From Molanna angustata (Eukaryota; Arthropoda; Insecta; Trichoptera; Molannidae), in NCBI GenBank assembly GCA_963576475.1, contig OY754981.1, forward strand, positions 30,418,132 to 30,482,131: 64,000 nucleotides of DNA, in the 5' to 3' direction. The translations under genes and the position numbers were made by a program. The notes under the pieces were generated by a model. The model was given only the letters and a program-made list of their open reading frames with translations. It was not told the DNA's origin and did no database searches. Of this stretch, positions 34,171 to 62,029 are shown piece after piece; position 1 is the first letter of the stretch, and each line of letters starts with the position of its first letter.

Positions 34171-34176
34171 ACCTAC

Positions 34177-35461: not shown

Positions 35462-35469
35462 ATTTGAAA

Positions 35470-40137: not shown

Positions 40138-40225
40138 TATTGAGTGAATATTGGCACAAATGATGCCTACTTTGGTTAACACAAATACAAATAATCACAA
40201 AATAAGTAATTTAAAAGAATCTTAC

Positions 40226-41450: not shown

Positions 41451-41459
41451 ATTGAAAAA

Positions 41460-42650
41460 CTTTCGAACCCTGCTCTAATTTTGACAAATGTTTGACGTGA
41501 CTCAACTGAGTTCCTAATATAACGCTACTAACTTCATGTTGATAATTATATTTCTAGACTGATCCAAAGAGATCCAGAATACACAACATTTCAATGTGTA
41601 TATGTGACTAACTTCATTGGATGTCTTGTGAAATTGTCTTCATTGATACAAAATGCAATAATTCATCAATAAATATTACTTTTCAATGAAAGAATTGATT
41701 AATTGTTACCTTTAGCTGATTATAAAACAACCATTGTTTCTACGAATAATGAGGACTTAAAAAAATAAATCTACCATCTTCGATGTATGTAATATGTTTT
41801 ATTTATTTATGTCTTTTTGTGAAAATGTTAATAAAATGTTACATTGTTATTAACTACCATTTTTTTTTTAATAATTAAATTTTTTATTACATAACCATAT
41901 GGACTGTAGACTAATATTTTACATATTCATTAATGAATAGAATAATAAATTAAGCTTGAATTGTTTTTAAAATGCTTTACTTTCAGAAATGACCATGACT
42001 GTTTATTGTCATGCACTCATTCAATAAATACCTATTTAATATTTTATAATTTCCTGGAAATCAAAGATATTTTTAATAATCGCCGCTTCATATTACATAG
42101 GTATCCGTTGAAATTTTGTACATCATCCTGGCGATTTTTTTTTAAATTCCTCTTGTGATACCTACATACTGAATGTAAATATTTTTCAACATTTATTAAA
42201 CGTCATTTAAAAAGGAGCATAATCCATAATCGACCACAGTGAATGATTAAAAGATATTTTGTTGCAAGTTGTACTCCACAATAAATGGCATGAGATTAAA
42301 TAAACCTATGTACTATATATTATTATACTTATTACCATTTAGTATGTACAATAGAAATATACTATAATAATATAGATAATACGTCACCACAACTATATAT
42401 TCGTCATTATTATTACCTTGATACCCGTATATACATTAAATTTACTATTTTTCGATAGGTATTCATATGGAATTTTATTTATTGTTTTCAATATTAAACT
42501 ATCTGTAATAATTGAAGAATAATCTTATCAATTCCTAAGGCTGTCAAAAAGTCGAAGACTATTTCCGATTATTTTTTATAATAATTCATCATCATCGTCG
42601 TCTTCCTAATTGCTAAGTGAGGATCGTCTGTCATCAATGTTCCGAAGACG
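41460..42650. other. Intergenic region between the EHD gene and the Ig-receptor gene
   Basis: Should contain the promoter of EHD exon A. No specific core-promoter element could be assigned with confidence. Confidence 0.4.
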
Positions 42651-43115: not shown

Positions 43116-43297
43116 TTATATGAAGACTTGTGGTTTTTCAGATACATCAAATCTGAATGAATCTCTGATGGATCTTCTTCGACTGGAAAAATTTGAACAG
43201 ATGCGAGTCCTAAATACTAACGATGCAAATATTAAAGCAAGTCCACATATGGTCAGTACATAAAAGGTCCATGAAAGCAATGACCAATGTTTGATAT
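43116..43297 (-). CDS. Ig-domain receptor, exon 12: transmembrane helix and cytoplasmic tail
   Basis: Acceptor TTTTATTGCAG above 43297, phase 1, matching the donor at 45744. The frame reads IKHWSLLSWTF, a hydrophobic helix of ~22 residues (about 655-677: SWTFYVLTICGLALIFASLV), a basic stop-transfer FRTRICSNFSSRRRSIRDS and the end DVSEKPQVFI, TAA at 43118-43116. The tail is about 31 residues with no tyrosine, so no ITAM/ITIM. The last residues V-F-I would fit a class II PDZ ligand, which is inference. This exon turns the upstream Ig exons into a type I membrane protein. Confidence 0.82.
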
Positions 43298-43402
43298 CTG
43301 CAATAAAAACATCGATTAAATTAATGCTATGATTTGTAAGAATAAAGTTTATTTTAGCTAACTTTAAGAAAGATTAGGTTATAAATTCGACATGATTTTT
43401 CC

Positions 43403-44323
43403 AGCTGTCATTTTGTTCAAGAGAATTTATTTCTCTTAACATATCGACAAAGTATCAAGTCAAGATACGCGAGATTTGTATGCAGGGTCTATATTTTTCA
43501 CGGTTTTTCCAACTTTCAAAAAACACCAACTTAGAGGCTTCGCAGCATATATATATGTTCTAAACATGGATTCACTCAGAATTCGGAGTAGAACATTTAG
43601 TGTGTCTGTGTGTGTACCTTTATAACTTTTGATCCGCTTATTAACAGAGCCCAAAATTTCATAATATATAGATAGTTATAGGCCCACAAAACTTTTATAC
43701 TTAGAATTTTGAATTTTTGTTTCATTCAGGGGTTATGAACTTTTAACTTTTGAATTTTTACTTTGTTTTTCCATATATCTCAAAAGCCATAAAAGCTAGA
43801 ATGCTGAAAATTGGTATAAATATAGACAAATATAAAATCTCAAATGACTTTTTTTTTAAATTAAAGGTTTTTCAAATATTTTTTATAAAGATTTTTTAAT
43901 GATATATTTATGTGTTTAACTGCCTATTTTTTTTTTTTAAATAACGAAAAAAGCTGAAACACTCCTACTAGATATTTAAATTTTCTATAAAAAATATGAA
44001 CATTGCAGAAGGACATCTAAAAGTTTTTTTAACAATTTTTATAAAAATTAAATTTAGCCTCAACATCGTTTCACACAATTTGTATGGCGGTATACACCAC
44101 ATAATATCTACAGGGACAATGGTGTTATCATACTCTGGGTAAAAACAGACTGACCTCCATACTATCCTATCCTGACATGCATACCTACATGTTTTATATA
44201 GAAAACAAAATATCTTAAAACATTTATTAATTTGTGTTTAAGTATTTATAGTTTGGTACGTATTCTTCAATTATACATACGATCGCCATCGACAGTTGGA
44301 TCTCGTGTGTTACATGCAACTAG
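43403..44323 (-). repeat. Repeat family A, inverted copy
   Basis: Runs from TCCAGCTGTCATTTTGTTC to ACATGCAACTAG and keeps most internal blocks, including the (GT)n-associated GAGTAGAACATTTAGTGTG. It lies in the last intron of the receptor gene. Confidence 0.85.
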
Positions 44324-44644
44324 TTTTATGTATGTTCAACGATAAGTCTCTACCACGTCGTCAGATTTCATTAATTTTTCATTAGAAAGGGGGTACCTTA
44401 TGAATTTGTTCAATCCATGAAAAAAATCATCAACTTCAATTTGCAAAGGCATCAATCTGTCGTACAGACTGCAGACTATGGGCGAATAATTATTTACCAC
44501 GAGAGAGAAATGAAAGATGATCATCTTTACTACGCTGGAAAACCAAGGCTTCAGAAAAGTAAGAATGGAAGAGATTGCTGTATTCAGCCATGGCCCATCC
44601 AGGGCTGTCCGGCTTATGATAATAATGATGAATTCTTTTCAGAT

Positions 44645-45650
44645 TTGCCCCCCTGATCAACCGGCGGAATCAAAAACATCCATGTTAACCCATATCATGT
44701 ATTTTGTTCGATGATAAAACTGACCTAGTTGAAATGATAAAATTCAGAGTACCTACAAGGTTTGCTTCACGTCAAAATGCACCTTTTCATATAGAGAATC
44801 TTCGAAATAACTTTATCATTAACTCACCAATACATAGATTGCACCGCCTTGGAAACCAATATAGTGCTGTTGATATATTTAATGTACACACTATAGATGG
44901 TTTCAAAAGGATGCTTAACGCATATTATAATTTTTGATTTTTACTTTGCTTTGTTTATTTTTGTTGTTTAAATTGAATATGTAATACTGTTTATTTTTTT
45001 TCTTTTATGTCTAGTTTTTTTTTATCATTTACCTCTATTTTCTTTTATTATGTTGTATTTTGTTGTTTTATATTGTTCTTCCTTTAACTACTTACGTTTT
45101 TTTATTATGTACCTGTATAATCGATGTATTTACACTTATTGTTATTTTGTTATGCCTACATTGTTCCATTTATCCTGTATTTTTTTGTAAATGCCCTATT
45201 AAGGGCTTATATATAATAAATAAATAAATAAATAAATAAAGAGAGAATTTTAAAGATTGTATAAATTCTGGGTTCTGCTTCTTTTTTGTTTTCGTTTTTT
45301 TTTGTTTTTGCTTAATCTGATGCGTGTTTTTCTTTAATTTTATTTTTATTGTACTTCACTAACTATATATCTTGTAAATTTATATATTTTTTGTTGTAGT
45401 TATATATAGGTACCTATTTATAATTATGTATGTATGTATTGTGCTTCGTGGTTAATGAACATATGTTTTAATAATTTGTAATTGTGTATGTAAAAGCTCA
45501 TTAATGGCTTTTATATAAATAAATAAATAAATAATTATCTTATGGATTTCTATAATATCTTAAGATGCGATAGAACTATATAAGATAATTATATCCATGA
45601 TATGGGTTTACATTGGATGGTTATGATTCCGCCGGTTGACGAGACTTGCC
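44645..45650. mobile_element. GGGGCAA-family MITE split by LINE 3' ends
   Basis: One arm (TTGCCCCCCTGATCAACCGG, GGCGGAATCAAAAAC, AACCCATATCATG) lies at 44645-44700. The rest of the palindrome and the other arm (ATAATTATCTTATGG...CCATGATATGGG, GATTCCGCCGG, GACTTGCC) lies at 45530-45650. The ~830 bp between are LINE 3' sequence with AATA tails. Confidence 0.72.
44701..45535 (+). pseudogene. LINE 3' ends (two AATA-tailed tails)
   Basis: A plus-strand frame to 44937 reads FRVPTRFASRQNAPFHIENL, PIHRLHRLGNQYSAVDIF and a GFKRML tail, the C-terminal pattern of Jockey/CR1-like ORF2. The 3' part ends TTAAGGGCTTATATA with (AATA)n at about 45215-45240. A second similar end, CATTAATGGCTTTTATATAA with (AATA)n, follows at 45500-45535, so two LINE tails seem to lie in series. 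Confidence 0.75.
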
Positions 45651-45743
45651 TCCCAGATCCAATGACTTTAAAAAAATTATGAATTATGGTCGAAACGAAT
45701 TCAAATAATCATTCAAAACAAAAAAAAAAACGTCGATACTTAC

Positions 45744-45935
45744 ATACGTAAATAATGTCATAAGGTTGTAATAAAAATTTATCAGAAAATTCTTTTTCAA
45801 TGTCAGTGGGTTTCGCAGCACATGTCCACAATCCTTTATCGTTTGGTGATACAGTTTTGATTTTTAATAAACAAATACCTTTGTCCAAATCAATTCCGTT
45901 GTTAAGGTAATTTTTATTATTTTGTGGATTTATTC
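45744..45935 (-). CDS. Ig-domain receptor, exon 11: second half of Ig domain 6
   Basis: 192 nt, phase 1 to 1. Acceptor TTTTTTCAG above 45935; donor T|GTAAGT below 45744 (an alternative GTATGT lies five bases earlier). It reads INPQNNKNYLNNGIDLDKG, then ICLLKIKTVSPNDKGLWTCA with the third and fourth domain cysteines and the D-x-G-x-W-x-C F-strand signature, then ends FLLQPYDIIYV. Confidence 0.85.
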
Positions 45936-46019
45936 CTGAAAAAATAAACATATAAACAATATAATTATGAAATGGGACATAGTTCCCGCTCTACATTAGG
46001 TAGGCATATAATCACATAT

Positions 46020-46500
46020 TTAGACAACATGAGCCCGTCACGTGGGTATGCAGATGGCAAATTTGTGTATTTTTGCTTGGTTGGTATATGTGAAAACTGC
46101 GCCCCTCCACGTCGAAAATGTTCAAGAAGTTTGGCGGCATAACCACTACTTCAATAAACTACATAGCAGATACATAGCTCACAACATAAAACAGATTAAC
46201 CAGGTTCAAAATGCCCGACATAATACATTATTTAATATTTTAAGACTAATCTTACTGTTCTGAATAAAACTAAAAAATACAGTTTATTTGCGTTTTCCAA
46301 CCAATTGGGCGGTGACACAGTAGGAGTTAATATTCGATACTTGATAAAAATAATCGATAACTTTGTTATCTACCGCATAATATATTTTATGAGAACAGGC
46401 GCGTTGTGGGCAAACTACCAACCTGCTATTAAATTCTTGGAGGCATGAATAAAATGGAGACTCTTGTATGCAAAAATTGACTGACAAAGTTTTTTAGGTA
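46020..46500. other. Short unidentified frames in intron
   Basis: A plus-strand frame (46042-46263) and a minus-strand frame (46487-46284) of 67-73 codons have no recognisable motif and no exon-like splice setting in the receptor model. Probably transposon pieces. Confidence 0.25.
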
Positions 46501-46877
46501 TTATAGTATTACGAAGAATTTAGTCACAGTGATGACAATACAAAAATACAATAAACAAGTTAATAGAAATGTGGATGATAAAAAATTCGTTAATCATTTT
46601 TATAAAAATAACAGTCACAAGATTCCCGCAAAAATATTTTGTGATAAAAAGGGCTTGATCGTATGGCAATAATGTTTATGTTTACGAACATATTACCCGT
46701 ATCGAGTACCAGAAAATGCAGTGTGAACAATTTAAGAGGTATGCAAGTAAAGTTGAAGCAATTTAAAAAATTTAATGTTCATTGTATTGGCAATCCTACT
46801 GGATTTTTCAAAAGCTTAAATTTTGGTAGATGATTCGTCATTCATTTTCGATATTTAGCTAAAGGCGGATTCTTCTT

Positions 46878-47081
46878 GATAGTGATGAGCAAATGCAATA
46901 CCAGGACCTAGACCGGGGTGGTATTGTATCCCCGGTTTTGCATTTACAGATGTCGTCATGACCTTAGTCTATGGTTTTTCGAGGTCTTGGTCTTGCAGCT
47001 ACACGGGCGGTCTTGGTCTTGGTCTAGCAAGTCTCGCAAGACCAAGACTGCGAAACCAGCAAGACTTTTCTCATCACTACT
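46878..47081. mobile_element. Short hAT-like MITE
   Basis: TAGTGATGAG at left and CTCATCACTA at right are inverted. Flanks CTTCTTGA and CTTGTTGG agree at 6 of 8 positions, compatible with an aged 8-bp duplication. Internally rich in GGTCTTGGTCTTG repeats and their complements. Confidence 0.6.
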
Positions 47082-47232
47082 TGTTGGTAGACAGCAAATT
47101 TATGAATGAATTCGTCATACATCCATTCCTTACTTCCTCCAAAATTCATACAACGATTCCTTTGTTGTTATTTTTTTGTGTTGTAGGTATTTAGATGATT
47201 AAATTGATGAATATATATTACAAAACAATTAC

Positions 47233-47358
47233 CAATTCCATCTGGTCTTACAAATCTGCAATATTCAACTGGTGTTTCCTTGTAAGTTTTGCATCCAATG
47301 TTAATATTTATATCGTCCTCCAAATATGTTATTGTATTCAATGGAACCAACAATGAAT
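47233..47358 (-). CDS. Ig-domain receptor, exon 10: first half of Ig domain 6
   Basis: 126 nt, phase 1 to 1. Acceptor CTCTCAG above 47358; donor G|GTAATT below 47233. It reads LVPLNTITYLEDDININIGC and KTYKETPVEYCRFVRPDGIG: first (INIGC) and second (EYCRF) domain cysteines. Confidence 0.85.
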
Positions 47359-47454
47359 CTGAGAGTTAAGAAAATGTTATTTACACAAAAAAAAATAGGT
47401 AAAATTTACAACGTATAATTCCCCAAGTATAAAATTTTTAAATTCCGTTAGTTA

Positions 47455-47715
47455 AAACTAAATAATTAGGGTTATATTACGGGAATTATTCAAGGAAGGT
47501 ATATAAAAAAATAAATAACTAGGTTTATATTACGGGAATTATTCAAGAAAGATATATATAAAAAATTAAATAATTATGCTAATATTACGGGAATTATTCG
47601 AGAAAGATATATAAAAAACTAAATAATTAGGCTACTATTACGGGAATTATTCAAGAAATATATATAAAAAACTAAGTAATTAGGCTATTATTACGGGAAT
47701 TGTTCCAGAAATTCC
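47455..47715. repeat. Tandem repeat, ~60-bp unit, about 4-5 copies
   Basis: Each unit contains ATTACGGGAATTATTC followed by A-rich ATATAAAAAACTAAATAATTA. Copies are imperfect. Intronic in the receptor gene. Confidence 0.9.
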
Positions 47716-47960
47716 TACAAATAAAAAAGATGAGGTCCCGTAAGTAGTATTCTCGCAGTACGGGATCGTACCTTTATAAACACTTATATTTTTAATAGCT
47801 CTCGTAATACGACCCTTTTGTTCCACGTTAGTATATTTTCTTTCTACAAGTCAATCGTTTCGGCTGACTAGGTTTTTACTATGACATAATATATGCATAT
47901 TCTTGTGTGATGAGGCTTCAAACTAATAAATGACAAAAACATTTAAAATGAATTACTTAC

Positions 47961-48125
47961 TATAAACAGTAACGTTAAATTTCTTTTGAATGTCTGTTCC
48001 ATTTGAAGTTCCCATATTGCATGTCCATAATCCATTATCAGTTTTATTGGAATTTAATATTCTGATGCCGCATTCACCAAAGTTCAAACCACGTCCAAAA
48101 TATTCATAATCAGGTGTGGGTTTAT
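47961..48125 (-). CDS. Ig-domain receptor, exon 9: second half of Ig domain 5
   Basis: 165 nt, phase 1 to 1. Acceptor TTTTAAG above 48125; donor A|GTAAGT below 47961. It reads DYEYFGRGLNFGECGIRI and NSNKTDNGLWTCNMGTSNG: third and fourth cysteines with the D-x-G-x-W-x-C signature, ending FNVTVY. Confidence 0.87.
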
Positions 48126-48780
48126 CTTAAAATGGAAATGAAATAAAATTTAAATTGTCTTTTTACTTTCTTTGATATCGTATTTGCTTCATATATTTCA
48201 TTAAATACATAAAAAAAATGGATATATTCATTATCTTTATTATGTTTTTTTATTTTTGTCATGTCATAACCTTATTCCCGTAGTACACATTGTATTTATT
48301 AAAATCAACTATGGTTGGTTGGAAGAAATTGCCGTTCGTCATGAAGCCAGCCAGTGTACAAATTATGTGTACAAGAAATTACAAAAAAATAAATAAATAA
48401 ATATGAATTATGTTAAAAAATGAATGTGTCTTTGTGCTAATAACATAATATACCTACCTCCTCATAATACATATGTTCCCTATACTAAGCAAATGCATGT
48501 GATTTAGTTGAACGAAATACATCGACACAGAAAATCAAGATTATTTTACAAAAAAAAAAACCGCGAAAGTTCAGTAATTACAATGAAACATAAATATTCA
48601 TAATAAACATTAGCCGATATTTTATTTGTTATGAATCTAAGTTATTATGACACCCTTTTACTAAAATTTACTTGTCAGTAACTACAGTTAGAGCTCTAAA
48701 ACTTTCAGAATTTGTGTATTCCCGGTGAAAATGTATGTCAAAACTATTTCCAGCTTGATTCATTTGATATTTGAATAATT

Positions 48781-49100
<320 letters not shown>

Positions 49101-49259
49101 TAGATAAAATTTACCAATTTTGTATTTCATACAACCTAAACAATAATTATTGCCTAAAACCAGGAGTGTTTTTGTGAATTTCTTTTGAAAAGGAAATTTC
49201 AACGTGAAGAAAACTTTAAAAAGGGTATAAAAAAATAAGATGTTTACACAATAATTTTG

Positions 49260-49395
49260 TATTAAGGATCATATCATGGGAGTTATTTAAGATAAACATA
49301 AGAAAAAGTTGAGTTTTTGTAAGCAGTATTCTCGCAGTACGGTACCTTACCTTTTCTTATATATTTTTCTCAAATAACTCCCGTTATACGACTCC
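49260..49395. mobile_element. Small inverted-repeat element
   Basis: GATCATATCATGGGAGTTATTT near 49267 is mirrored by AAATAACTCCCGTTATACGA near 49372. The centre has GTAGCAGTATTCTCGCAGTACGG-like sequence that also occurs near 47742-47765, so a relative sits there. Confidence 0.6.
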
Positions 49396-49601
49396 GCAAA
49401 ATTTTGATTTTAGACTTGTAAGACTTGGCTTTGAAGAGTTGCTCATTACTACCAATCTGTCAAAAACCCATCTAAATAATAACTACAATTTACATTTGAG
49501 ACTTGAACAAAAATAAAGTAAGATGGCTTCATTTTATGGTTAAAATTAATTACGACGTTTGTATATTTGTGTAAAAGAAAAGTAAAATAAAATTAACTCA
49601 C

Positions 49602-49742
49602 CAGATAAGGGGGCATATTGTGTAAAGTTGGGAGATCTAAACCAACAATAGTTTATCTTCTGTGTATGATTACATTTCATTTCAATTACATTTCCTATGT
49701 GAGATAAAACTTGTGTATTTGAGGATCCTTTATTGTTGTCCC
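49602..49742 (-). CDS. Ig-domain receptor, exon 8: first half of Ig domain 5
   Basis: 141 nt, phase 1 to 1. Acceptor ATTTCAG above 49742; donor G|GTGAGT below 49602. It reads GSSNTQVLSHIGNVIEMKC and NHTQKINYCWFRSPNFTQYA: first (EMKC) and second (NYCWF) domain cysteines, with NHT and NFT N-glycosylation sequons. Confidence 0.87.
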
Positions 49743-49933
49743 CTGAAATGAATTGTAATACGAACAGATTGATATCAATAACGTACCTACATTATTATGT
49801 AATACATACTGTTTGTTATATGAATGTAACTTAAAGAAACCTATGTGGAAAGAAACGAATATTTGTGAACTCTTTAGGAAATCTTCTGTAAAAAGTATTG
49901 TTGGGGACCTATACATACTTATCAATGAATATT

Positions 49934-50667
49934 GATTTCGAATATTTTTTTATATACGAAAACATTTAATCGTTTTCCCCTGTCGAGAGTCAAACGATAT
50001 TTTTTTGACAAATTTTCAACATCTTAATAGAGACGAAGTTGGAATATTATGGAAGAATTTCTAACTTTTATTTTTATTGACAAACATTTTTTCAACATCT
50101 CAATAGAGACGAAGTTGGGATATTGTAGAAGGACCAGGAACTCGAGGCACCTACAGGGCTTACGACCTGTCATCGGCTGGTTTACGTGATAACTTTATGC
50201 GCTTGCGCAACGTTCACCAATTATGCCTTCTTATTGAGTTCCCTTATCGATGTAATTTTTGAAAGTTCTATATATTTGAATAGTGTGTAAAATTTTTCCT
50301 GAAAATAATGCATTATTACTATTGCCATCTATGGAGCAACGGTGAAATGTTTTTGTAACGCCATCTATTGAAAAATTGAGAAATTAATTTTTATTTGTAA
50401 ACAATGAAAGCAATAGTCCTTATAAATGAGATGACGTGTCAAGAAGGCATAATTGGTGAACGTTGCGCAAGCGCATAAATTGATCACGTAAACCAGCCGA
50501 TGACAGGTCGTAGATGCCTCGAGTTCCTGGTTCTTCTACAATATCCCAACTTCGTCTCTATTGAAATGTTGAAAAAATGTTTGTCAATAAAAATATCATT
50601 TGACTCCCGAAAGGGAAAAAAATCCAAATGTTTGCGTATATGCAATTAAAAATGAATATTCGAAATT
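49934..50667. mobile_element. ~730-bp foldback element with long inverted arms
   Basis: TTTCGAATATT at left and AATATTCGAAAT at right bound the structure. Core arms 50070-50241 and 50440-50600 are near-perfect complements (e.g. GACGAAGTTGGGATATTGTA, CCTGTCATCGGCTGGTTTAC and GCGCTTGCGCAACGTTCACC against their complements). The left arm also carries a second direct copy of the CAACATC-TAGAGACGAAGTTGG segment (50019-50045). The outer arm sequence (ATATCATTTGACTCCC) is shared with 30580-30660. Non-coding. Confidence 0.85.
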
Positions 50668-50914
50668 CTAACTTTTTAGAAAATCTTAATAGATCGCATT
50701 ACAAGAAGATTTCTTCGTTCATAACATAACCTTCTAGAGACTTCTCATGGAAATGCTCCCGATTTCTCTCATTGTGTATAGCACGTAAAATTGTCAAAAT
50801 TGTGTGTACATAATGTTCATATATTGTACACATGTAAAATAATTAGCCAACTGATATGATAGAAAGATAAAATAATTCAATGCCATGTATCTACCTAAAA
50901 TAAAAAAATAATAC

Positions 50915-51084
50915 CTGATTCAACACCTGGCAAGTTTTCACTAGTATTGCTCAAAGTCAAGATTTCTCCAACAGTGGTATCGTCTTCCTTGGTCATTAGA
51001 CATTGCCATCCCTCTAAATCATTTTCGTCAGGATTTTCAACCTTCAGTCCACATTCTGTGATTGTATTATTTTCAGTGTCTTTA
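50915..51084 (-). CDS. Ig-domain receptor, exon 7: second half of Ig domain 4
   Basis: 170 nt, phase 2 to 1. Acceptor TTTTCTAG above 51084; donor G|GTATTA below 50915. It reads KDTENNTITECGLKVENPDE and NDLEGWQCLMTKEDDTTVGE, with the third and fourth cysteines, ending ENLPGVES. Confidence 0.85.
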
Positions 51085-51147
51085 CTAGAAAACGCAAAAC
51101 AAACAAACAAGAGAAAAGTATTAAATTTACTTGAGATAATTAATCTA

Positions 51148-51239
51148 TGTGTACGATGAATGTGTGCCAGGATAGAAAGATATGGCGTTCGGTTCTCTCT
51201 GCCTACCCCGTAAGGGACATGGCGTGATGGTATGTATGT
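51148..51239 (+). mobile_element. 92-bp RTE-like LINE 3' tail with 12-bp target duplication
   Basis: Carries the end of the frame seen at 52735-53066 (WRSVLSAYP-type, GACATGGCGTGATGGTATGT). ATAATTAATCTA occurs exactly on both sides (51136-51147 and 51240-51251). Very short 5'-truncated copy inside a receptor intron. Confidence 0.88.
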
Positions 51240-51341
51240 ATAATTAATCTAAGGAATTGGAGCTGTTGAGTCGAGTTTTTATGATTGCAGAACTTACGAG
51301 GAATTGTTTTTCCATATATTTTTAAATTATACACGCCATTT

Positions 51342-51894
51342 TTACTCCTCACTAACCCAAGGGGATATAGTGGGGAATTATGATTTCGGAATATTTAAGG
51401 CTATGTTGCTGAGATTGTATTCTGAAAGTTTCATCACAGTGTATTTGTGTCGTGTGTGTATACTGTGTACTATGTGCTGTGTGCTACGTACGTTGTGTTT
51501 ATTTTACTTTATCGATTATAGACTAAAGTACTCATTCGATTCCTTTTAAATTTTGCTTATTTGTATATCTAATACTCGCTTAGACTCCATTAGATTTTGA
51601 AGGATATCTGAATAGTGCTTCTCATTTTTTTAACTATGAAATTATTCAAAGTGACCCCAAGCTCAGGAAACTAAAAATTTAAATTTTTTATTTTCAAATT
51701 GGTAAAAAGGTACACCACTTTCATAAAATGGCATTAAAGAATTGTCAGGTTTTCGTTATAAAATATTTAAATAAAAAAATAATTTATCAAACTTATTTCA
51801 TGAAAATGCTGAATATTTTTCATACAAAATTTTAATACTTTGTAGAATGATCACTAACAAGTGAGGAGTTTAGCGTTGGCCACAACCCACTATA
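51342..51894. repeat. Interspersed repeat family B, copy 1
   Basis: TACTCCTCACTAACCCAAGG to GTTGGCCACAACCCACT. It shares TATAGTGGGGA, CATCACA-TGTAT, ACTTTATCGAT-ATAGACT and AGTGACCCCA blocks with 54492-55013 and 62327-62928. Non-coding. Confidence 0.8.
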
Positions 51895-52085
51895 TTTAAT
51901 ATGGATTTAATTTTGATATAAAAATAAATGATGGTAAAATTGAGTTGGATTTGGCTTCTAGCTCCAAGAATATTTATGTCTTGACCTTATATAATTATAA
52001 TTAAATAACTTAAATTACTAAGTGTATTATACTTCTTTTTTTGGTAAATAACATTCTTTGCATAGCCTTAAAAAATGTTCCTTAC

Positions 52086-52275
52086 TATTGAACTCTTCCA
52101 TGGTAGGAATATCTTCCGTTTCCAATGCCAGGTGATAGCACAAAGACAGTTCCATCTTGTCTGATCATCTTACAAACCTTTATTGAAGGGATCATCATAG
52201 AGCACAGTACAGTCAAAATATTATCTTGTTCGTTGTGTAATATATGCGACACCATCTTGTCAGGATGAACTGGAC
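52086..52275 (-). CDS. Ig-domain receptor, exon 6: first half of Ig domain 4
   Basis: 190 nt, phase 1 to 2. Acceptor TTTTAAG above 52275; donor AATA|GTAAGG below 52086. It reads HILHNEQDNILTVLCSMMIP and SIKVCKMIRQDGTVF, then IGNGRYSYHGRVQ/Y: first (VLC) and second (KVC) cysteines, and the YSY-G element before the second half. Phase 2 at this junction, unlike the phase 1 of the other two split domains, is why it is easily missed. Confidence 0.82.
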
Positions 52276-52489
52276 CTTAAAATCATAGACAAAAACGAGA
52301 TTGTAAAATTAAATATAAATTTTAATATTTTTTCAGAAGGACAGGTACTCCGTCAGTGCCCTCTAAACCAACGAGTAAGAGTCGCAAATAATGTTAAACG
52401 AGGACTAGGAGGCCCGACCCTGGAAGAACTGGAGACTGGATATGATGATGATTTTAAATAATAAATTTTGTCTGTAATAAATTAAGATC

Positions 52490-53568
52490 AATTTTAAGTA
52501 AATTTTACCATCTTAAATAGTGCGTGTCCAGGCACACCCTGTACTGCCTGTACTATGCTATGTCTGGTCGAGTCTATTATTGACTACGGGCTCAGTAGTT
52601 ACGGACGAACATTTAAAACCTACCTTGATAAAATAAAACAATTACAAATAATATTTTTAAAAATAATTGCAACAAAAAGAACAGTGGAGGCAAGTAAAAA
52701 TAACATTAACGAAATATTTAAAAGATGCAATATTAAGAATTAAGAAAGATGTCATTACTAGAATGAAAGTAAACACATTGAGATGGTTTGGTCACATGGG
52801 GAGAATGAATGAGGAGCGCCTGACGAAGAAAATATACAGAGCGGAAAGGAATGGAATGAGAGGTCGGGGACGCCCAAGAAAGGGATGGCACGACCATGTG
52901 AATGAAATTTTGAAAGACGGAAATGTTAGAAGTGTGAGCAATAGACGAACATGTATGAGACGATGCATGAATGTGGACGAGGCGAGGGATGCGTGCCAGG
53001 ATAGAAAAATGTGGCGTTCGGTTCTCTCTGCCTACCCCGCAAGGGACATGGCGTGATGGTATGTATGATGCAATATTTTACCTATAGAAAAAAAGGTGAA
53101 TCTTTTACTGACCATAGAAGAACTTTATAACGAACAATTTAAATTAAAGATCACTCACGAATATACAACTAGACAAATAACGAAAGACTTACTGACAATA
53201 CCTAAAACAAATAACGTTTACGGCGACAGGACAAAAGCAACGATAATTCCGAAACTATTTAACAAACTGCCAAAATATTCAAATTAAAAACAAAAAAAAA
53301 ATAAAAAAAATGTTAAAAGAATTTTATATATAAGTTTGTATGTTTTCTTTGTTGTTACATTGTGTTAATGGTTTTAATTATTGTTATATTGTGTTGCTAG
53401 TTTTTAATTTTTGTTTGTTTATTATTAGTTTTTGTTACATTATCAAATTTATATAAGTGTACGAGAGAGCTAGCACTGTTAAACTGCTTTTTCAGTTTAG
53501 TGCAAGAATACTTATTGTTTAAAAAAATGTAAATACTTAAATAAAACTTTAATAAAAAAAAAAAAAAT
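52490..53568 (+). pseudogene. LINE 3' end interrupted by another LINE
   Basis: The plus-strand frame from 52555 reads VESIIDYGLSSYGRTFKTYL, DKIKQLQIIFLKIIATKRT and EIFKRCNI. It is interrupted by an RTE-like insert and resumes LPIEKKVNLLLTIEELYNEQ and ATIIPKLFNKLPKYSN, stopping at 53287. A/T-rich 3' tail to about 53568. Jockey/CR1-like C-terminus. Confidence 0.82.
52735..53066 (+). mobile_element. RTE-like LINE 3' fragment, 332 bp, with 11-bp target duplication
   Basis: Frame: LRWFGHMGRMNEERLTKKIY, GRGRPRKGWHDHVNEILKD, MWRSVLSAYPARDMA, stop at 53056, then GATGGTATGTAT. This RWFGH / GRPRK-W C-terminus is typical of non-LTR ORF2 ends. GATGCAATATT is repeated exactly at 52724-52734 and 53067-53077. 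Confidence 0.93.
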
Positions 53569-53589
53569 ATTTTCTGATAAAAGGAGATG

Positions 53590-54050
53590 GGTTGTTTTCA
53601 AGATGTGGTTCTATTAAAGAATGTTGGGGATTTCCTAGGAAGACAACATCACACGAATGAAGTTTTCATAAGAATCGAAGGATGAAGACACTTGAAGGCA
53701 TCTCAGAAAAACGTGCCAGATATATTGGGACCATAATGCGACAGGCGAGGAGGGGGTTTTCTACATATAATAACATAATAGAGGGAACGAATTCTAGGGA
53801 GTATCTGGAAGACAGGAGAGTGCCTAGAACCTTCGGGCTAGGCAAACCCTGAAGGAAAATTGAGAAACGTCGAAAATTGAAAGTTTTTTTAGCATCGTTG
53901 TTCATTTTAATGGTTATGTAAATATTTTAAAATCACATGACAAAATAATATTTATATTTGAGGCCCTGTCAAGCATCGCATCTACATACATACGGTTTAA
54001 TTTTTAATCTTGTAGTATGATTTCAATAAAACAAACAAAAAAATACTAGG
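53590..54050. repeat. Decayed LINE-like piece and repeat shared with 63490-63700
   Basis: The plus strand contains RMKTLEGISEKRARYIGTIM, a LINE-like C-terminal segment. From TAGAACCTTCGG (about 53826) the sequence matches 63495-63690 (TTTTTTAGCATCG-TGTTCATTT, AAAATCACATG-CAAAA, GGCCCTGT-AAGCATC). Confidence 0.55.
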
Positions 54051-54073
54051 TATTTTTTTAATCAAACTTAATC

Positions 54074-54280
54074 GACCGCCGTGGCACAGTTGGTAAGCCG
54101 TTCGGTTTCTATGTGGGCGACCTGGGTTCGATTCCCATCAGAGGAGAAATTTATTTAAATTCATTTCTCACGCAAATATTGCTTCTCTGGGCTGGAAACA
54201 CTGGTTAGTTGGAAGAAATTGCCATAAGGCAATAAACTCGCAACTTGCGCAGGGTGCAAGGAAGTGTTAATTATTATTAA
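54074..54280 (+). repeat. tRNA-derived SINE, family 1
   Basis: GTGGCACAGTTGGTAAGCCG, GGGTTCGATTCCC, CTGGGCTGGAAACACTGG and an (ATT)n tail. Nearly full length. Confidence 0.88.
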
Positions 54281-54282
54281 AT

Positions 54283-54432
54283 GATTATGATTCTACATAT
54301 ATATTTTCCTTATAATAGGACGACCGTTTCGGCTGACTAAGCCCTTATCAACCAGTTGATAAGGGCCTAGTCAGCCGAAACGGTCGTGCTATTATAAGGA
54401 AAAAATATATATAATATGTAGAAACATAATCA
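54283..54432. mobile_element. 150-bp perfect-looking foldback
   Basis: GATTATGATTCTACATAT at left mirrors ATATGTAGAAACATAATC at right, and CGACCGTTTCGGCTGACTAA / CTAGTCAGCCGAAACGGTCG meet at the centre GTTGATAAGGG. It abuts the SINE tail. Confidence 0.88.
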
Positions 54433-54491
54433 TTCTTGTTTGATTTAAAAATAAAATAAAATATTAAAAATAAATAAAAATATTTTATTTT

Positions 54492-55013
54492 TACTCCTCA
54501 CTAACCCAAGGTGATATAGTGGAGAGTTATGATTTCGCAATTTTTAAGGGTATTTGTAAATTGCAGATTATCAACTGGTATCATGCTGAGATTGTGTTCT
54601 GAAAGTTTCATCACAATGTATCTGTGTGTGTGTGCTATGTGCTATGTGCTATGTACGGCGTGTTCATTTTACTTTATCGAATATAGACTGAAGTACTCAT
54701 TCGATTCTTTTCAAATTTTGCACATAGGTAATATGTATATCTAATGCTCGCTTGGACCCCAATAGATTTTGAAGGATATCAGAATAGTGCTTCTCAATTT
54801 TTTTAACTGTCAAATATTTCAGAGTGACCCCAATCTCAGGAACTTTGAAATTTGAATTTTTTATTTTCAAATTGGTAAAAGGGCATATCGCTTTCATAAA
54901 ATGGCATTAATCAATAATTAAGTTTTCATAATAGAGTGTTTAAATAAAAAATAATTGAACAGGCTCATTTCATGAAGATGCTGAATATTTTCCATACAAA
55001 TAATTAGCTGTGA
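54492..55013. repeat. Interspersed repeat family B, copy 2 (right end lost)
   Basis: TACTCCTCACTAACCCAAGG onward. Lacks the GTTGGCCACAACCCACT end. Confidence 0.75.
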
Positions 55014-55194
55014 GGCACCGGCTTAGAATAGTGCTTCCATTCTTTTAAATCATTGTTTTCGAGTGTCCCGTAAGAGCCGGGTAATCGAAAATACAACAGG
55101 CAACAATAACATCTCACATAGTTCAGCAATGAGGATCACCACCCATTCTGAATGTAGTGCCTTTTTTGGTGAAACGAGACTGGTGTGTGGGTAT

Positions 55195-55300
55195 ACATAG
55201 ATGTGTTGTTCTCCCTTTTATAAGGCAATGCACACCCGCACACCTTTCGCTGGTTACCCCACATTGTGGGATATGCCGTGATGGTATGAATGAATGAATG
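55195..55300 (+). pseudogene. LINE 3' tail fragment
   Basis: GGTTACCCCACATTGTGGGA-TATGCCGTGATGGTATGAATG resembles the TACCCC...GACATGGCGTGATGGTATG end of the RTE-like copies. Confidence 0.5.
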
Positions 55301-56195
55301 ATTTAAAAATACCTAGTATAATGGAGTTCTACATATTAAATACCGTCAGTATTGACAAATTAAAAAGACAAAAAAATATTAGGTCTTGAATTTCTTGATA
55401 TAATATTCGTATGCAAGCCAAGATTTTCGGCTTCCATAAGCAATTCCGCTACTGCTGGAAGATCTGTGCCAGGGTTTGGGCTGTAGCACCAACAAGGAGC
55501 TGAAAAGGGTAGCACAAAACACTAGAATGGAAGGGAGGATGAGAGAATTTGCTATTGAACAAACCCAAAGATTGAATCAAGACGAGAAGAATAAAATCTC
55601 GTAGTATTACGATTCGTAATATTAATTTTATTTTGATAATCTCATTTTATAACTTATTGTATTGCGAAATTCATTGTTTCATCAAATATAATAATCAAGT
55701 TTGTAAAATCAAATATTTTTAAATCAAGCATACCAATCTCATTCCACAATCAATGGTTATATTGATTGTATTTTTTTTTGTCATATTATATATTGCTTTC
55801 GAATATAAATAAAATAAATTATTTATAATGATAAGGGCAGTTAAGGTTATTTGACTGAAGCGACATAGTAGTCAATATTGAAGTTATATACAATTTTTTT
55901 CGACTTTAAATATATTTTCGTCAAACGAAGTTAGTATTAAGTGAAGCGTGGAAAGAACAGGATTGCTGATTTTCCAATGAACCTTTTGCTCTCTATATTC
56001 TATACATGGACGGTTTTACTCAATATTTGGGATTTGACTTTATTGATTTGACGTTTATTCAGTTTTGTTTTGTAATGCCGAAACTTTTAGGTAGTCAATT
56101 TGCGAATAGTAAGGACTGGAATGTTCTAAAAGAATACCATTTGCTGCAAATAGTACAATATTCCATCAGTTTGTACATAGGTTTAATCAAACGAT

Positions 56196-56277
56196 ATCAA
56201 TAATCATAATAAGACGATCTTGTCTTTATATTTAAAAAAGCTATTACAAGACAAAACGATCGTCTTATTATTAGGTA
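56196..56277. mobile_element. Short palindrome
   Basis: AATAAGACGATCTTGTCTT mirrors AAGACAAAACGATCGTCTTATT around an A-rich centre. Probably a small foldback MITE. Confidence 0.6.
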
Positions 56278-56385
56278 AGAGGAATATGAAATTATTGAAA
56301 TATTGATCAAATTCGATTTTAATTAGTATTGTTGTGGAGTTCTACAATATAAAAGATGTCAAATCAGATGATTCCATCAACTTAC

Positions 56386-56640
56386 CATCTGTTTCTTCGA
56401 CTTTCAAACTGTAATTGTATGTGACTGTCTGAATTGTTCCTGGCAAACCGACATTCACCGTCCAGACACCTTTATGCCCTTTAGAGACACTGTCCAGAAA
56501 TATGGAACATGGACCGACATAGCTGTATTTGGTGCCTGAAGGATCTATTGCTTCGCAGAACAAAGATTCACTCGGTCCAAGCTCCAAGGTAACGGATGAT
56601 CCAAGTTTAAGTTCAATGTCTGTATTTACCTTTGGCAAAT
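56386..56640 (-). CDS. Ig-domain receptor, exon 5: Ig domain 3
   Basis: 255 nt, phase 1 to 1. Acceptor TTTTTAG above 56640; donor G|GTAAGT below 56386. Whole domain in one exon: SVTLELGPSESLFCEAIDPS, YVGPCSIFLDSVSKGHKGVW. Cysteines occur only at the second (LFCEA) and third (GPCSI) positions. The F-strand has GVWTV in place of WTC, so the canonical Ig disulfide cannot form. Confidence 0.87.
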
Positions 56641-56860
56641 CTAAAAATACATTTTTTGGTTATTAAAATGTTTCAGAATATTATTTTTAACATCTAATAA
56701 TTATATAAAAAAATCGGTTAACACGTTAAAGAATTATTTGATGATTTTCTCACTAGATATTATCAAATTTAATGGAATCACCCCATAATTTACCCTCTTT
56801 CCTATTAAAAATAAATCAACTAACAGGTGTCACTTTATCAAATCTATCTTGAATAAAAAT

Positions 56861-57093
56861 TTGTCACAATTTGGAGATTTCTGATCTTAATCGTCCCACA
56901 AATCCAGATTGAATAAAAGGTTGTCACAATTTGGAGATTTCTGATCTTAATCGTCCCACAAATCCAGATTGAATAAAAGGTTGTCACAATTTGGAGATTT
57001 CTGATCTAAATCGTCCCAAAAATCCAGATTGAATAAAAGGTTGTCACAATTTGGAGATTGATGATCTTAATTGTCCCACAAATCCAGATTGAA
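56861..57093. repeat. Tandem repeat, 60-bp unit, four copies
   Basis: Unit: TTGTCACAATTTGGAGATTT, CTGATCTTAATCGTCCCACA, AATCCAGATTGAATAAAAGG. Units 1 and 2 are nearly identical, 3 and 4 carry a few changes. Intronic between receptor exons 4 and 5. Confidence 0.95.
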
Positions 57094-57266
57094 AACGCAG
57101 TGATAAAATGTTTCTACCGGGACTTTTTCCTCAGGAGATCTTACAAATAAATTACAAATTTTATCTATGTAACAAACTGGGCGACGAAGATTTCAGGATT
57201 TCCCTTAATAAATACAGGTTTAGTACCTACTTAAAAATATTGTAAAAATAAACAAATTAAACTGAC

Positions 57267-57539
57267 CTATAACTGTAATATTTAACTTCCCGTATACAAC
57301 ATAACCTAATTCCATTTTAATGACCCATTCTCCAGATTGGTTCTTGTTTATATTCTTCAGGGTTGTTTCGCAAGTGAATGTTGAACTATTATATTGAATT
57401 GCCTCTTTACTGTTTGGCCATGTTCCTGGACTGAATACTTCACATGTTGGATTACTCGTCATACTTTCAGAGATATAAAAACGAACGTCTTGTCCATCGT
57501 ATACAGTCAGAGAATCTTCTGGAACTGTGTTCACTTCCT
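57267..57539 (-). CDS. Ig-domain receptor, exon 4: Ig domain 2
   Basis: 273 nt, phase 1 to 1. Acceptor TTTTCTAG above 57539; donor G|GTCAGT below 57267. Reads VPEDSLTVYDGQDVRFYI, TSNPTCEVFSPGTWPNSKEA, STFTCETTLKNINKNQSGEW, ending YGKLNITVI. Two cysteines (PTCEV, FTCET); GEWVI replaces WTC. Confidence 0.87.
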
Positions 57540-57749
57540 CTAGAAAAGACAACAAATCGTTAGCCATACCATATTATTTATATCTAGATTCAATTATATT
57601 TAAATGTTATATTTTTTTAAAATAATAATATTATTATATGTTATTCAATTATCCACGATACAAATAGTGAGTTAACCCCAGGTTTTCATAGATCTGGGAT
57701 GGAGCCCTTATGTTGCCAAAGAACAGACTTTTGGAGACGCTTAGAGTTG

Positions 57750-57835
57750 GCCATAATAGACTTCCTTGCACCTTCTACAAGTGGGGAATTTATTACCGAA
57801 TAGCAATTGTTTCCTACTTACAACAGTATTGTCAG
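57750..57835 (-). repeat. Diverged SINE family 1 tail
   Basis: On the minus strand, TAATAAATTCCCCACTTGTA and AAGGTGCAAGGAAGT resemble the SINE body end. Confidence 0.45.
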
Positions 57836-58069
57836 ACCAGAAAAACAAGAAAATTTGTTTGCCTGTCACCGTGAGACAGGCCTTTATTTATTTAAGTGAC
57901 AAAATATAAAAAAGTTATTGATAAGCATTTAACTAAAACATTTTAATAATTTACTATTAAAAATTTAGTAAATATTTTTAATCTTATTCTATTTGTTTTT
58001 TAACAAATTAATAAGTAGTGATTTACTTATATTATAAGAACAAATTAACAGTAGGTAGGCGACCGCCGC

Positions 58070-58290
58070 AGACCGATGTGGCACAGTTGGGAAGCCTTTC
58101 GGTTTCTGTGCGGGCGTCCTGGGTTCGATTTCCAGCAGAGAAGAAATTTATTTAAATTCATTTCTCATGCAAATATTGCTTCTCTGTGCTGGAAACACTA
58201 GTTAGTTGGAAGAAATTGCCATATTGCAATAAACTCGCCACTTGCGCAGGGTGCAAGGAAGTGTTCATTATTATTATTATTATCATTATC
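58070..58290 (+). repeat. tRNA-derived SINE, family 1
   Basis: GTGGCACAGTTGGGAAGCC, GGGTTCGATTTCC, CTGGAAACACTAGTTAGTTG and an (ATT)n tail. In the intron between receptor exons 3 and 4. Confidence 0.87.
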
Positions 58291-58598
58291 ATATAGCATT
58301 AGTAAAATCTTGTAAGACACGGTATTGTACATCTGAAATGGGTCTCGCATTGATAATGCAGATTTAGGGATGAATTTTAAGCAAGATTTAGGGATAATTG
58401 CTATAGCGAATTATGAGCGATTACTTATCCTAAAAAATATGAAATCATATAACTTATATTATCTAATCATATGACAAGTTACAGAGTACCACTTTTTTTG
58501 AGACATGTCATATTACAATTCGCCTATACTACACCCCCAAGAAACTTATAGCCCATAACTTAGTATTCAATATATCAAAATTCCAAAAATATACATAC

Positions 58599-58934
58599 CT
58601 AAAATAGAAATGGTCCAAGTTTGTTTTTCATATCGATGTTCTTCTGGATATAAGTCTTTGCTGTGTGATTTGAGTGTCCAGTTTCCAATATAACCAACGT
58701 GGAAGTTGTCGATCTTTACTCCACATTCATCAAAGTAATATGTATCTATAAGTGTTATGTTGTCGTCTGTTAAGTTGGAATTTTTAATGGGATACAGCTG
58801 AAATGTCGATCCATCTGGTGGGATTATGAAGCATTCTATAATTTTATTGAAGCTCGGTGGCTTTAAAACCATTTCAACACTTTTCCCTCTTTGCGTATCT
58901 AGCACTTGGTCTTTCAATGTTATGTTATACAGAT
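58599..58934 (-). CDS. Ig-domain receptor, exon 3: Ig domain 1
   Basis: 336 nt, phase 1 to 1. Acceptor TTTTCCAG above 58934; donor G|GTATGT below 58599. Reads DLYNITLKDQVLDTQRGKSV, NKIIECFIIPPDGSTFQLY, TYYFDECGVKIDNFHVGYIG then NWTLKSHSKD. Cysteines at positions two (ECFI) and three (DECGV) only; NWTL replaces WTC. NIT, NLT and NWT sequons support an extracellular protein. Confidence 0.88.
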
Positions 58935-59084
58935 CTGGAAAATAGGAAATAACCTTTGAAAAATATAAATATAAAAGAAATGTGCGAGATTTGGTTATAC
59001 TTACTCTTTTATAAAATTATTTAAACATCACTCTTATAAACATGTAACGATACGATCGGATAATATGGACCCAGAGTAATTTTT

Positions 59085-60375
59085 TTTTTTTATTTATTTA
59101 GGTAAAATATACAGGATTAAACCTACAATTATTTTACACGATTAATCTTAAAAAATAATTACATCAAATTTGTATAATATTTCAAATTTCAAAGCACAAA
59201 AATTAAAATAAACCAAAAGCATACAAGGTAGTAGGTACAAAAATCAAAATAAATCAAAATAAATTAAAGCATTCAAGGTAGTAGGTCATTCGCTTGTTTA
59301 CAAAAATATATACCGAAGTAGGTAGGAAAGAAACATCCAAAAAATTCGCACCTACATAATATTAACTATCCCGCATTGCATACTATGTGGGCACATATTG
59401 CACAAGCTCCACAAATCAAGGCAAGAAAATACATTTTTTAAATTCATTTAATTCTGAGAAAATATCTACAAGAGGTCTGGTCAACGATATGATATTAAAA
59501 TCGCGAGTAATTCTAGGGAGGGGGGAGAAACAACATATATTAGTTTTATATGACTTTAAAATAAAAAAGTCCCGAGATCTTGTATACACTTTTTTTGCGT
59601 TAAAATTCAATAGGCGCAGTATATTGGGGGCATCTAGTCTGCCATTGACGACATTATATAGGCAAATTAAACCAACCATTCTTCTTCTTTCCTTCAGGGA
59701 GTTTATTTTATAAAAGTTCATTTTTTTTCGTACGTATCTAGATTTGATTTCTTTAAGCGATAAGTCAGAATCCTGAGGAACTTTTTTTGAATTCCCTCAA
59801 TTCTCTGACTATGCACTTCATAATTCGGTGACCAAATAACCGAATTATATTCTAAAACAGAAACTACGAGACTTTTGTATAGACTCAATGCTACTGTTTG
59901 GTCCGAAAAGTCCTTTGTCTGCCTGCATATACCTAAACCCTTGTAGTTTAGAAGCTTTTTTGGCTATTTCATCTATATGCGCGTCATATTTAAGTTTAAA
60001 ATCGAATAGGACTCCTAAATCTATCACAGTATCACATCTTGCTAAATAATTATTATTTATGTTGTACTGGAAAGATATTTTAGATTTATTATTTGTGAAG
60101 GAAATATATTGGCACTTGCTGTAGTTAAAATAAAGGTTATTAAGTTTACACCAAGTATATAGGGAGGCGAGGTCCTTCTGCAGTAGATAACAGTCTGTGA
60201 TAGATTCTATTTTACGGTACAGTTTTAGATCGTCGGCAAAAAGCAAAAATTCAGAGTACTTAATTGACGAGGCTATGTCGTTTATGAATAATAGAAATAG
60301 AAGCGGTCCAAGTAGTGATCCTTGTGCGATTCCCGATTGTAATGATGGCTTTCGGAGATAACGGCCTTTAAAGTG
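59085..60375 (-). pseudogene. 5'-truncated LINE reverse transcriptase and tail
   Basis: On the minus strand: SLQSGIAQGSLLGPLLFLLF (near 60335), FLLFADDLKLYRKIES (near 60250-60210, catalytic ADD), then VIDLGVLFDFKLKYDAHIDE. A frameshift near 59870 is followed by the C-terminal frame 59721-59416 (MVGLICLYNVVNGRLDAPN, DIFSELNEFKKCIF). The tail at about 59085-59100 is A-rich with AAATAAATAAA. Jockey/CR1-like. Sits in the intron between receptor exons 2 and 3. Confidence 0.87.
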
Positions 60376-61061
60376 TTGAAAATTGCTATTTTAACACGTC
60401 AGTTATAGTAAGCAGTGTGATTTTTTTAAAATATCTTGAACCTAGCTTCCGAGTTCCTGGCAAATTCGTGTCTTTTTGTTTCGTTGGTTTGCGTGCGAAT
60501 TGCTCCCCTTCGAAACTGTATTTGGCGACAACTATACTACGGCTTTATGAAATACAATTAGAAATCACGTCTTACATTCATATTACACAATCGTTGTTAC
60601 CTGCTGTAGTATCCTTTTACAGAAAAAAATCAGCCTTTTTACTGCCAGTAAATCTGTAAGATTACGTCATAATCTGACAGACGCTGGCCTCTTGATCTAT
60701 TATTAAAATTGAATGTGTATCGATAAATAAATTTGCAAGTCACCACTCGAACAGCTACAATATAATAATGTACTGAAAGACTCTTTTGTCAAATCGTATA
60801 AACAACATTTTTTAATTTACATAAACACAAAAATATAGTAAAATTAAATCAATCTTGTCGAACTTTCAAACTTTATTTTTATATTTTTTATAAATATTTT
60901 TTTGTGATTATTGGATAGCGCTAGTGGATGAATATTTCTTTTGACAGTTTATTCGGATTGTTAACAAGCAACAAATAATTATAAAGTGAAAATATGTAGA
61001 ACATTGTTTATAATAAACAAATAAAACTTAATTATATACAAAAAAATAAATTGTTACATAC

Positions 61062-61100
61062 CATCATCATCTTCCTTATAGGAGTCTTCCGTAAAACAAA
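61062..61100 (-). CDS. Ig-domain receptor, exon 2: short acidic linker
   Basis: 39 nt, phase 1 to 1. Acceptor TTTTTTTTCAG above 61100; donor G|GTATGT below 61062. It encodes VCFTEDSYKEDDD, placed just after the signal peptide. Such a microexon is found only by phase matching, so it is somewhat less certain than the Ig exons. Confidence 0.75.
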
Positions 61101-61971
61101 CTGAAAAAAAATGTAAGTATCTATATCAAAATTAAACGCTTTCAATATTTTTTATCTGCCCGTGTTCGAAAGTATGCAAAAAAGTGTTTCGGTATAATAT
61201 CTCAGTTGAAATCCATTATTTGCTTCATTTTTATTTATTTATGTATATACACTATACACATACATTTATATGCACCGCAAGAATTGTATCCGCAATGCCC
61301 CACTAGGTAATAAGCCTGTGCCGAGGCTAATGCTTCTCGAAACTCACACTGTAATAAATAGTGAATACCAACATCAATCGTATATAAAAAATTGCATCTA
61401 TATACTGTTACAAATCAAATAACAATAAATATAAATATATAAATAATATAAGAATAATAAAATGTCAAAATTTACTGTATCGGTTTATACTTTTGTGTTA
61501 AGATATAGTAAGTAACTACCTACTTATTGTAATTTATTGTGTTGTGATGTCTGTTGTCCGTTTTAAAATTTTTTGGAAAAGACAAAATAACTATGTAAAA
61601 CCGAAATGTCAAATATTTGGCTTGGTAAAATTCTAAACTGCTAGCCCTAGAACAGGGTTACCTAGTTGGGCAGCAGTAATCTTCATAATAGTCTTTGTTA
61701 TAAAGGTGTGAAAAATAAATACAAAAAATATGTATAAGTATATATAAATTAATAAAAAAATAAACCCACATACAAATGTAAAAAAAAAAAAAAACATGTA
61801 TCCTCGAAGTGCAAAGCTACCTTATTTTCGGGTAAAATGTCCAACTTTGTAGTTATTTTTATTTTCTTATTTAATGTCATATATTTAATATATATATTTT
61901 TTGTATACAACATTTATATAATTCAAAACCTTAATTGTGATATTTTTAAATTAAAAAAATAGTTTAATTAC

Positions 61972-62029
61972 CATGTATTATAATCAGGAATATCATAAAA
62001 CTGCGGAAAATCAAGCCACAAAACAACAT
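61972..62029 (-). CDS. Ig-domain receptor, exon 1: signal peptide
   Basis: ATG at 62029, 58 nt, donor G|GTAATT below 61972 in phase 1. Encodes MLFCGLIFRSFMIFLIIIHG, a hydrophobic stretch suited to a signal peptide. With the other eleven exons it makes 2127 nt: 708 residues and a stop, with every junction in phase. Layout of the whole protein: signal peptide 1-20, acidic linker 20-32, Ig1 33-144, Ig2 145-235, Ig3 236-320, Ig4 321-440, Ig5 441-542, Ig6 543-648, membrane helix about 655-677, cytoplasmic tail 678-708. The family is not recognised. Confidence 0.78.

Follow-up and report, generated by a model that had tools for sequence, protein, structure and literature searches.

Fasciclin 3 (Fas3) is a classic adhesion marker with three extracellular immunoglobulin (Ig) domains, one of which is of the Ig1 type. 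Dscam carries fibronectin III (FN3) repeats beside its Ig domains, and hemolin has four Ig domains and is secreted. A passage of PMC12173457 describes Fas3 as acting in fasciculation and in the recognition of synaptic targets, homophilic binding of Fas3 is named in the title of Kose 1997 as it stands in the reference list of PMC10635556, and a section of PMC7379565 lists a Fas3 for Trichoplusia ni. Here we describe a locus of the caddisfly Molanna angustata that lies in a stretch of 64,000 nucleotides (nt), referred to below as the window (positions 30418132-30482131 of contig C17, accession OY754981.1; the genome comprises 995 Mb in 131 contigs). Twelve exons on the minus strand of the window, between positions 43116 and 62029, very likely make up a real gene as far as can be judged from sequence.

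We give a somewhat better than even chance to the reading that these 12 exons encode a predicted type I membrane protein with six Ig domains, of which domain 5 is related to the first Ig domain (Ig1) of Fas3, and that this protein is likely an adhesion or recognition receptor binding a partner on a neighbouring cell. The protein appears to belong to a group derived from the Fas3 domain; a limited literature search turned up no description of this group, or of any Ig proteins built from the first domain of Fas3.

The 12-exon gene and its predicted product

Two profiles were used to search for the exons. The first, termed the window-free profile, was made from 12 Ig domains of Heliothis virescens and was run against the six-frame open reading frames (ORFs) of the whole window. 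Its top nine matches were the nine exons that encode Ig domains, with expectation values (E) from 1.6e-11 to 0.45, and the tenth match was a plus-strand ORF with an E of 2.6. The second, the four-cysteine profile, was made from six domains, one of them a Fas3 domain; it placed eight of the domain exons on top, with the ninth level with a chance match (E 1.4).

When joined, the exons give 2127 nt and 708 codons with a single terminal stop. GT-AG boundaries were found at all 11 introns, which range from 602 to 4110 bases, and the frame is kept throughout, ten introns being in phase 1 and intron 6 in phase 2. The tail encoded by exon 12 links this exon to the others, as its IR[ND]SFR motif recurs in the Heliothis relatives considered below. 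The exons and one further frame are as follows.

61972..62029, minus strand: exon 1, which holds the start codon and a predicted signal peptide and is one of two first-exon candidates (splice model and hydropathy)
61062..61100, minus strand: exon 2, acidic linker of 39 nt, symmetrical 1-1 (splice model)
58599..58934, minus strand: exon 3, Ig domain 1, with C67 and C103 only (C-strand and E-strand); rank 7 with the window-free profile, E 0.038
57267..57539, minus strand: exon 4, Ig domain 2, with C177 and C201 only; window-free profile E 9.1e-6
56386..56640, minus strand: exon 5, Ig domain 3, with C264 and C280 only; profile E 3.2e-6, modelled with AlphaFold2 (see below)
52086..52275, minus strand: exon 6, Ig domain 4, first of its two exons (C345, C355); window-free profile E 0.0042
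50915..51084, minus strand: exon 7, Ig domain 4, second of its two exons (C395, C412); profile E 0.45, the weakest
49602..49742, minus strand: exon 8, Ig domain 5, first of its two exons (C464, C473); E 0.21, and 1.2e-4 with the four-cysteine profile
47961..48125, minus strand: exon 9, Ig domain 5, second of its two exons (C506, C523), Fas3 Ig1-like; E 1.6e-11
47233..47358, minus strand: exon 10, Ig domain 6, first of its two exons (C565, C576); window-free profile E 0.011
45744..45935, minus strand: exon 11, Ig domain 6, second of its two exons (C606, C623); window-free profile E 0.004
43116..43297, minus strand: exon 12, predicted transmembrane helix, basic tail with IRDSFR, and stop codon (hydropathy and tail motif)
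45589..45669, minus strand, in intron 11: short frame that follows an AG and, by eye, resembles the B-strand portion of one more Ig domain before it meets a stop

It can be seen that Ig domains 1, 2 and 3 occupy one exon apiece (exons 3, 4 and 5), and that domains 4, 5 and 6 are each encoded by a pair of exons (6 and 7, 8 and 9, 10 and 11). The signal peptide and membrane helix were predicted from hydropathy, where the N-terminal hydrophobic stretch is a 15-mer starting at residue 4 (mean 2.48) and the C-terminal one a 19-mer at residues 659-677 (mean 2.27). The latter is followed by a 32-residue tail with eight K/R, three D/E and no tyrosine. The ectodomain carries 15 N-glycosylation sequons, compared with 7.7 +/- 2.3 expected from 1000 shuffles. 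In the Pfam scan the protein scored 35.9 bits for V-set (cut-off 26) and 24.0 bits for I-set (cut-off 23.7), and an Rfam search gave nothing at the gathering score. The product is likely a surface receptor, of type I membrane topology by prediction, because it combines a signal peptide, 15 sequons, a single C-terminal hydrophobic stretch and a short basic tail.

A sequence-only reading of this DNA had proposed the same 12 minus-strand exons, with the same boundaries, phase and length, and this model was reproduced exactly. Its six Ig-like domains are borne out by the profile ranking of the nine domain exons, and the signal peptide, membrane anchor and tyrosine-free basic tail that it listed agree with the predicted hydrophobic stretches and with the tail composition. 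It had also argued that such an arrangement would hardly arise by chance, a view with which the profile lists accord.

It might nevertheless be that the model is partly wrong, in the sense that there is one gene but that its first two exons or some of the middle exons are skipped or replaced, or that its expression has been lost. We found no homologue of exons 1 and 2, and exon 2 could be omitted with the frame left intact. Two signal-like first exons of phase 1 pass the filter in the 5 kilobases (kb) upstream of exon 3, namely exon 1 and one other; exon 7 is the weakest profile match, and the frame in intron 11 may represent an extra half-domain. This last frame, which was absent from the profile matches, may be a remnant, or else a half-domain exon that is not used. 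However, the 708 codons run over 12 exons with no stop or frame break, and splice sites, phase and cysteines are all in agreement. Codon usage points the same way, as the frame used scores best of the three in 10 of the 12 exons (exons 1 and 9 being the exceptions), and we consider a partly wrong model rather unlikely.

Frames in intron 2 (59416-60390, minus strand) resemble by eye a fragment of a reverse transcriptase of the type lacking long terminal repeats (non-LTR), intron 4 has a 60-base tandem repeat at 56849-57093 (4.1 copies, 95% matches) and intron 9 has a 53-base repeat at 47454-47711.

Relatives in Heliothis and the link to Fas3

Protein-database searches returned four relatives, designated P0001 to P0004, two of which (P0001 and P0004) come from Heliothis virescens; the search tool needs shared exact five-residue words and so supports no claim on distribution. 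P0001, of 572 amino acids (aa), matched with 27% identity over 79% of the protein (E 5.1e-45), and in the alignment, at 29% identity, it presents the equivalents of domains 2-6, helix and tail in that order. For domains 2, 3, 5 and 6 the first match was the Heliothis domain of equal rank. Both P0001 and P0004 share with the 12-exon protein the order of domains 2-6, a predicted helix, a basic IRNSFR tail and the cysteine pattern, whereas they differ from it in having five Ig domains rather than six and no acidic linker exon that we could see. In P0004 (831 aa) a five-Ig receptor appears to be joined to a two-Ig receptor behind it, each with its own helix and IRNSFR tail, and the entry probably represents two neighbouring receptor genes annotated as one. 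The IR[ND]SFR motif thus stands behind the membrane helix in all four tails of the group, that of the window protein and three from Heliothis (P0001 once and P0004 twice), and it is absent from the tails of P0002 and P0003. These last two are weak matches (E 1.6e-5 and 9.9e-5, respectively), multi-Ig proteins for which hydropathy indicates a membrane helix; by eye, the domains of P0002 seem to bear the four-cysteine pattern too. In UniRef, P0001 and P0004 are named only as "Immunoglobulin / Ig-like domain-containing protein".

The low identity between the two insects and the neighbouring copies in Heliothis would fit a fast-evolving recognition family, and could be taken to indicate a lineage-specific multi-Ig immune receptor of blood cells or gut that binds the surfaces of microbes or parasites and not a partner on a sister cell. 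In the same direction, a part of PMC3230841 reports that Fas3 homologues were detected in Heliothis blood cells. In M. angustata, however, no further domain copy better than E 1.1 was found in flanks of 50 kb on the upstream side and 20 kb on the downstream side, and the Pfam scan of the protein gave no immune domain and no signalling motif. A search of the whole genome with P0001 returned two exons of the window and one match at E 0.08 that contains four stops, which leaves room for distant copies. We regard an immune receptor as unlikely. A further alternative, to which we would give very little weight, is that the protein serves recognition on the surface of sperm or eggs and evolves rapidly under sexual selection. 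With neighbouring copies in Heliothis and a lone copy here, this kind of multi-Ig receptor is a candidate recognition system of rapid change.

The link to Fas3 was found through domain 5, which was compared with the Fas3 Ig1 of Drosophila and with that of the M. angustata genome itself. With the Drosophila sequence, domain 5 showed 35% identity over 80 aa (31.6% over 95 aa in a second comparison), and among 18 window and Heliothis domains it was the best match at 53.5 bits, the next scoring 39.7. The M. angustata Fas3 gene lies on contig C2, where exons match Fas3 residues 230-383 at 32-54% identity and are accompanied by a second-Ig exon and, upstream, by three Ig1 exons. Domain 5 scored 52.8 bits against this Ig1 (27% identity over 81 aa, with four cysteines in common). 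By comparison, 53 ORFs from eight other Ig loci, chosen as the eight best Ig_3 matches of the genome (some of which may share one gene), scored no more than 23.1 bits against domain 5.

Could the locus simply be Fas3? We rejected this identity, since locus, architecture, inner introns and tail all differ. The Fas3 gene is on C2 and the 12-exon gene on C17; Fas3 has three Ig domains, in contrast to the six of the 12-exon protein, all of which are mutually similar (most clearly domains 5 and 6, with 33% identity over 69 aa and an E of about 3e-8). Two introns, in phases 2 and 0, interrupt the Ig1 of the M. angustata Fas3, their places being behind the C-strand cysteine and ahead of YGDCG, whereas domain 5 has a single phase-1 intron at residue 488. 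After its helix this Fas3 runs into FAKATNRWCFGG, as compared with a tail of the IRDSFR type in the 12-exon protein. Identity with Dscam was likewise rejected, as Pfam matches taken to an E of 10 included no FN3 family, and hemolin, with its four Ig domains and secreted form, is unlike a protein that has six domains and a hydrophobic C-terminal stretch.

The sequence-only reading had left the family unknown. This now needs qualifying, given that Heliothis has relatives which agree in domain order and tail motif, and given the closeness of domain 5 to Fas3 Ig1. A match to a described family was found for one of the six domains and does not extend to the whole protein.

Cysteine pairs and the Ig fold

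In all 19 aligned domains a pair of cysteines in the C-strand and E-strand is kept. The cysteines of the canonical Ig disulfide behave differently: both are missing in 10 of the 19, and in none is exactly one missing. Domains 1-3 of the 12-exon protein retain two of the four cysteines, and in domain 6 of Heliothis P0001 and P0004 the canonical cysteines are lost.

Domain 3, which has no canonical pair, was nevertheless modelled by AlphaFold2 as an Ig sandwich, with a predicted local distance difference test score (pLDDT) of 81.6. Sequence searches of solved structures gave generic Ig matches only, and among such matches to a 13-domain profile were Dscam (E 5.1e-6) and hemolin (E 2.5e-5). A model of whole-length P0001 was set aside as poor (pLDDT 47.9, predicted template modelling score 0.25), and its multi-Ig structural matches, with template modelling scores of at most 0.22 among the 50 matches listed, were not used.

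Ig domains that lack the canonical disulfide are also found in CD4 (domain 2) and CD2 (domain 1), and CD4 domain 2 has a C-F bond. The conserved pair of the 12-exon protein is C-E and thus differs from that of CD4. It differs also from titin, where, according to an excerpt of PMC5766482, there are Ig domains without the canonical disulfide and a B-G bond is preferred.

We suggest that each domain would be held by a disulfide from C-strand to E-strand, pinning the two sheets together as the canonical B-F bond does. The B-F bond would then be redundant and could be lost as a pair, as may have happened in domains 1-3. More broadly, it is conceivable, though we would rate it below even, that this is a family of recognition receptors that grew by multiplication of the first domain of Fas3, in which a C-E disulfide has taken the place of the tryptophan core and holds the sheets together, and half of the domains have lost the B-F bond, always pairwise. 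Since one cysteine pair is retained and the canonical one given up only as a whole, such a family would be a natural experiment on which of the two bonds the Ig fold requires.

Proposed function, and other features of the window

By extension from Fas3, the receptor may bind in trans to a partner on a neighbouring cell, possibly homophilically. The composition of the tail suggests that there would be no tyrosine-based signalling. We take the R-[ND]-S-F-R of the tail to fit the protein kinase C consensus, and the likeliest output would be a phosphorylation switch on a short tail close to the membrane.

A number of results weigh against the adhesion or recognition receptor reading as a whole, or against parts of it. 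As regards Fas3, none of the other five domains favoured its Ig1: domain 6 scored 26.2 and 25.4 bits with two of them and 24.3 bits with the M. angustata Fas3 Ig1, Fas3 Ig1 was missing from the matches when domain 4 was compared with the controls, and domains 1-3 gave at most 20.4 bits with Fas3 Ig1 or no match. The link to Fas3 therefore runs by way of domain 5 alone; the others would connect to Fas3 through their likeness within the protein and to Heliothis, and any transfer of function from Fas3 would depend on one domain. As regards Heliothis, domain 4 matches Heliothis domain 5 ahead of Heliothis domain 4, and the domain tree is largely without support, with 2 of 16 inner branches well supported. 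As regards the disulfide, four of the five AlphaFold2 models score lower (65.8 to 52.1) than the one good model of domain 3, in this good model the second cysteine sits just ahead of its strand, and the proposed C-E pairing draws on the sequence pattern.

Elsewhere in the window, long frames at 10131-11294 (plus strand) and 26691-27425 (minus strand) resemble by eye RNase H and retroelement endings. Two adjoining EHD-family genes lie on the minus strand at 34064-35491 and 40176-41474, both with EHD_N, Dynamin_N and DUF5600. Their products are 83% identical over 409 aa and their third codon positions 42% identical over 400 codons, and from this comparison we conclude that the pair represents an old tandem duplication under purifying selection.

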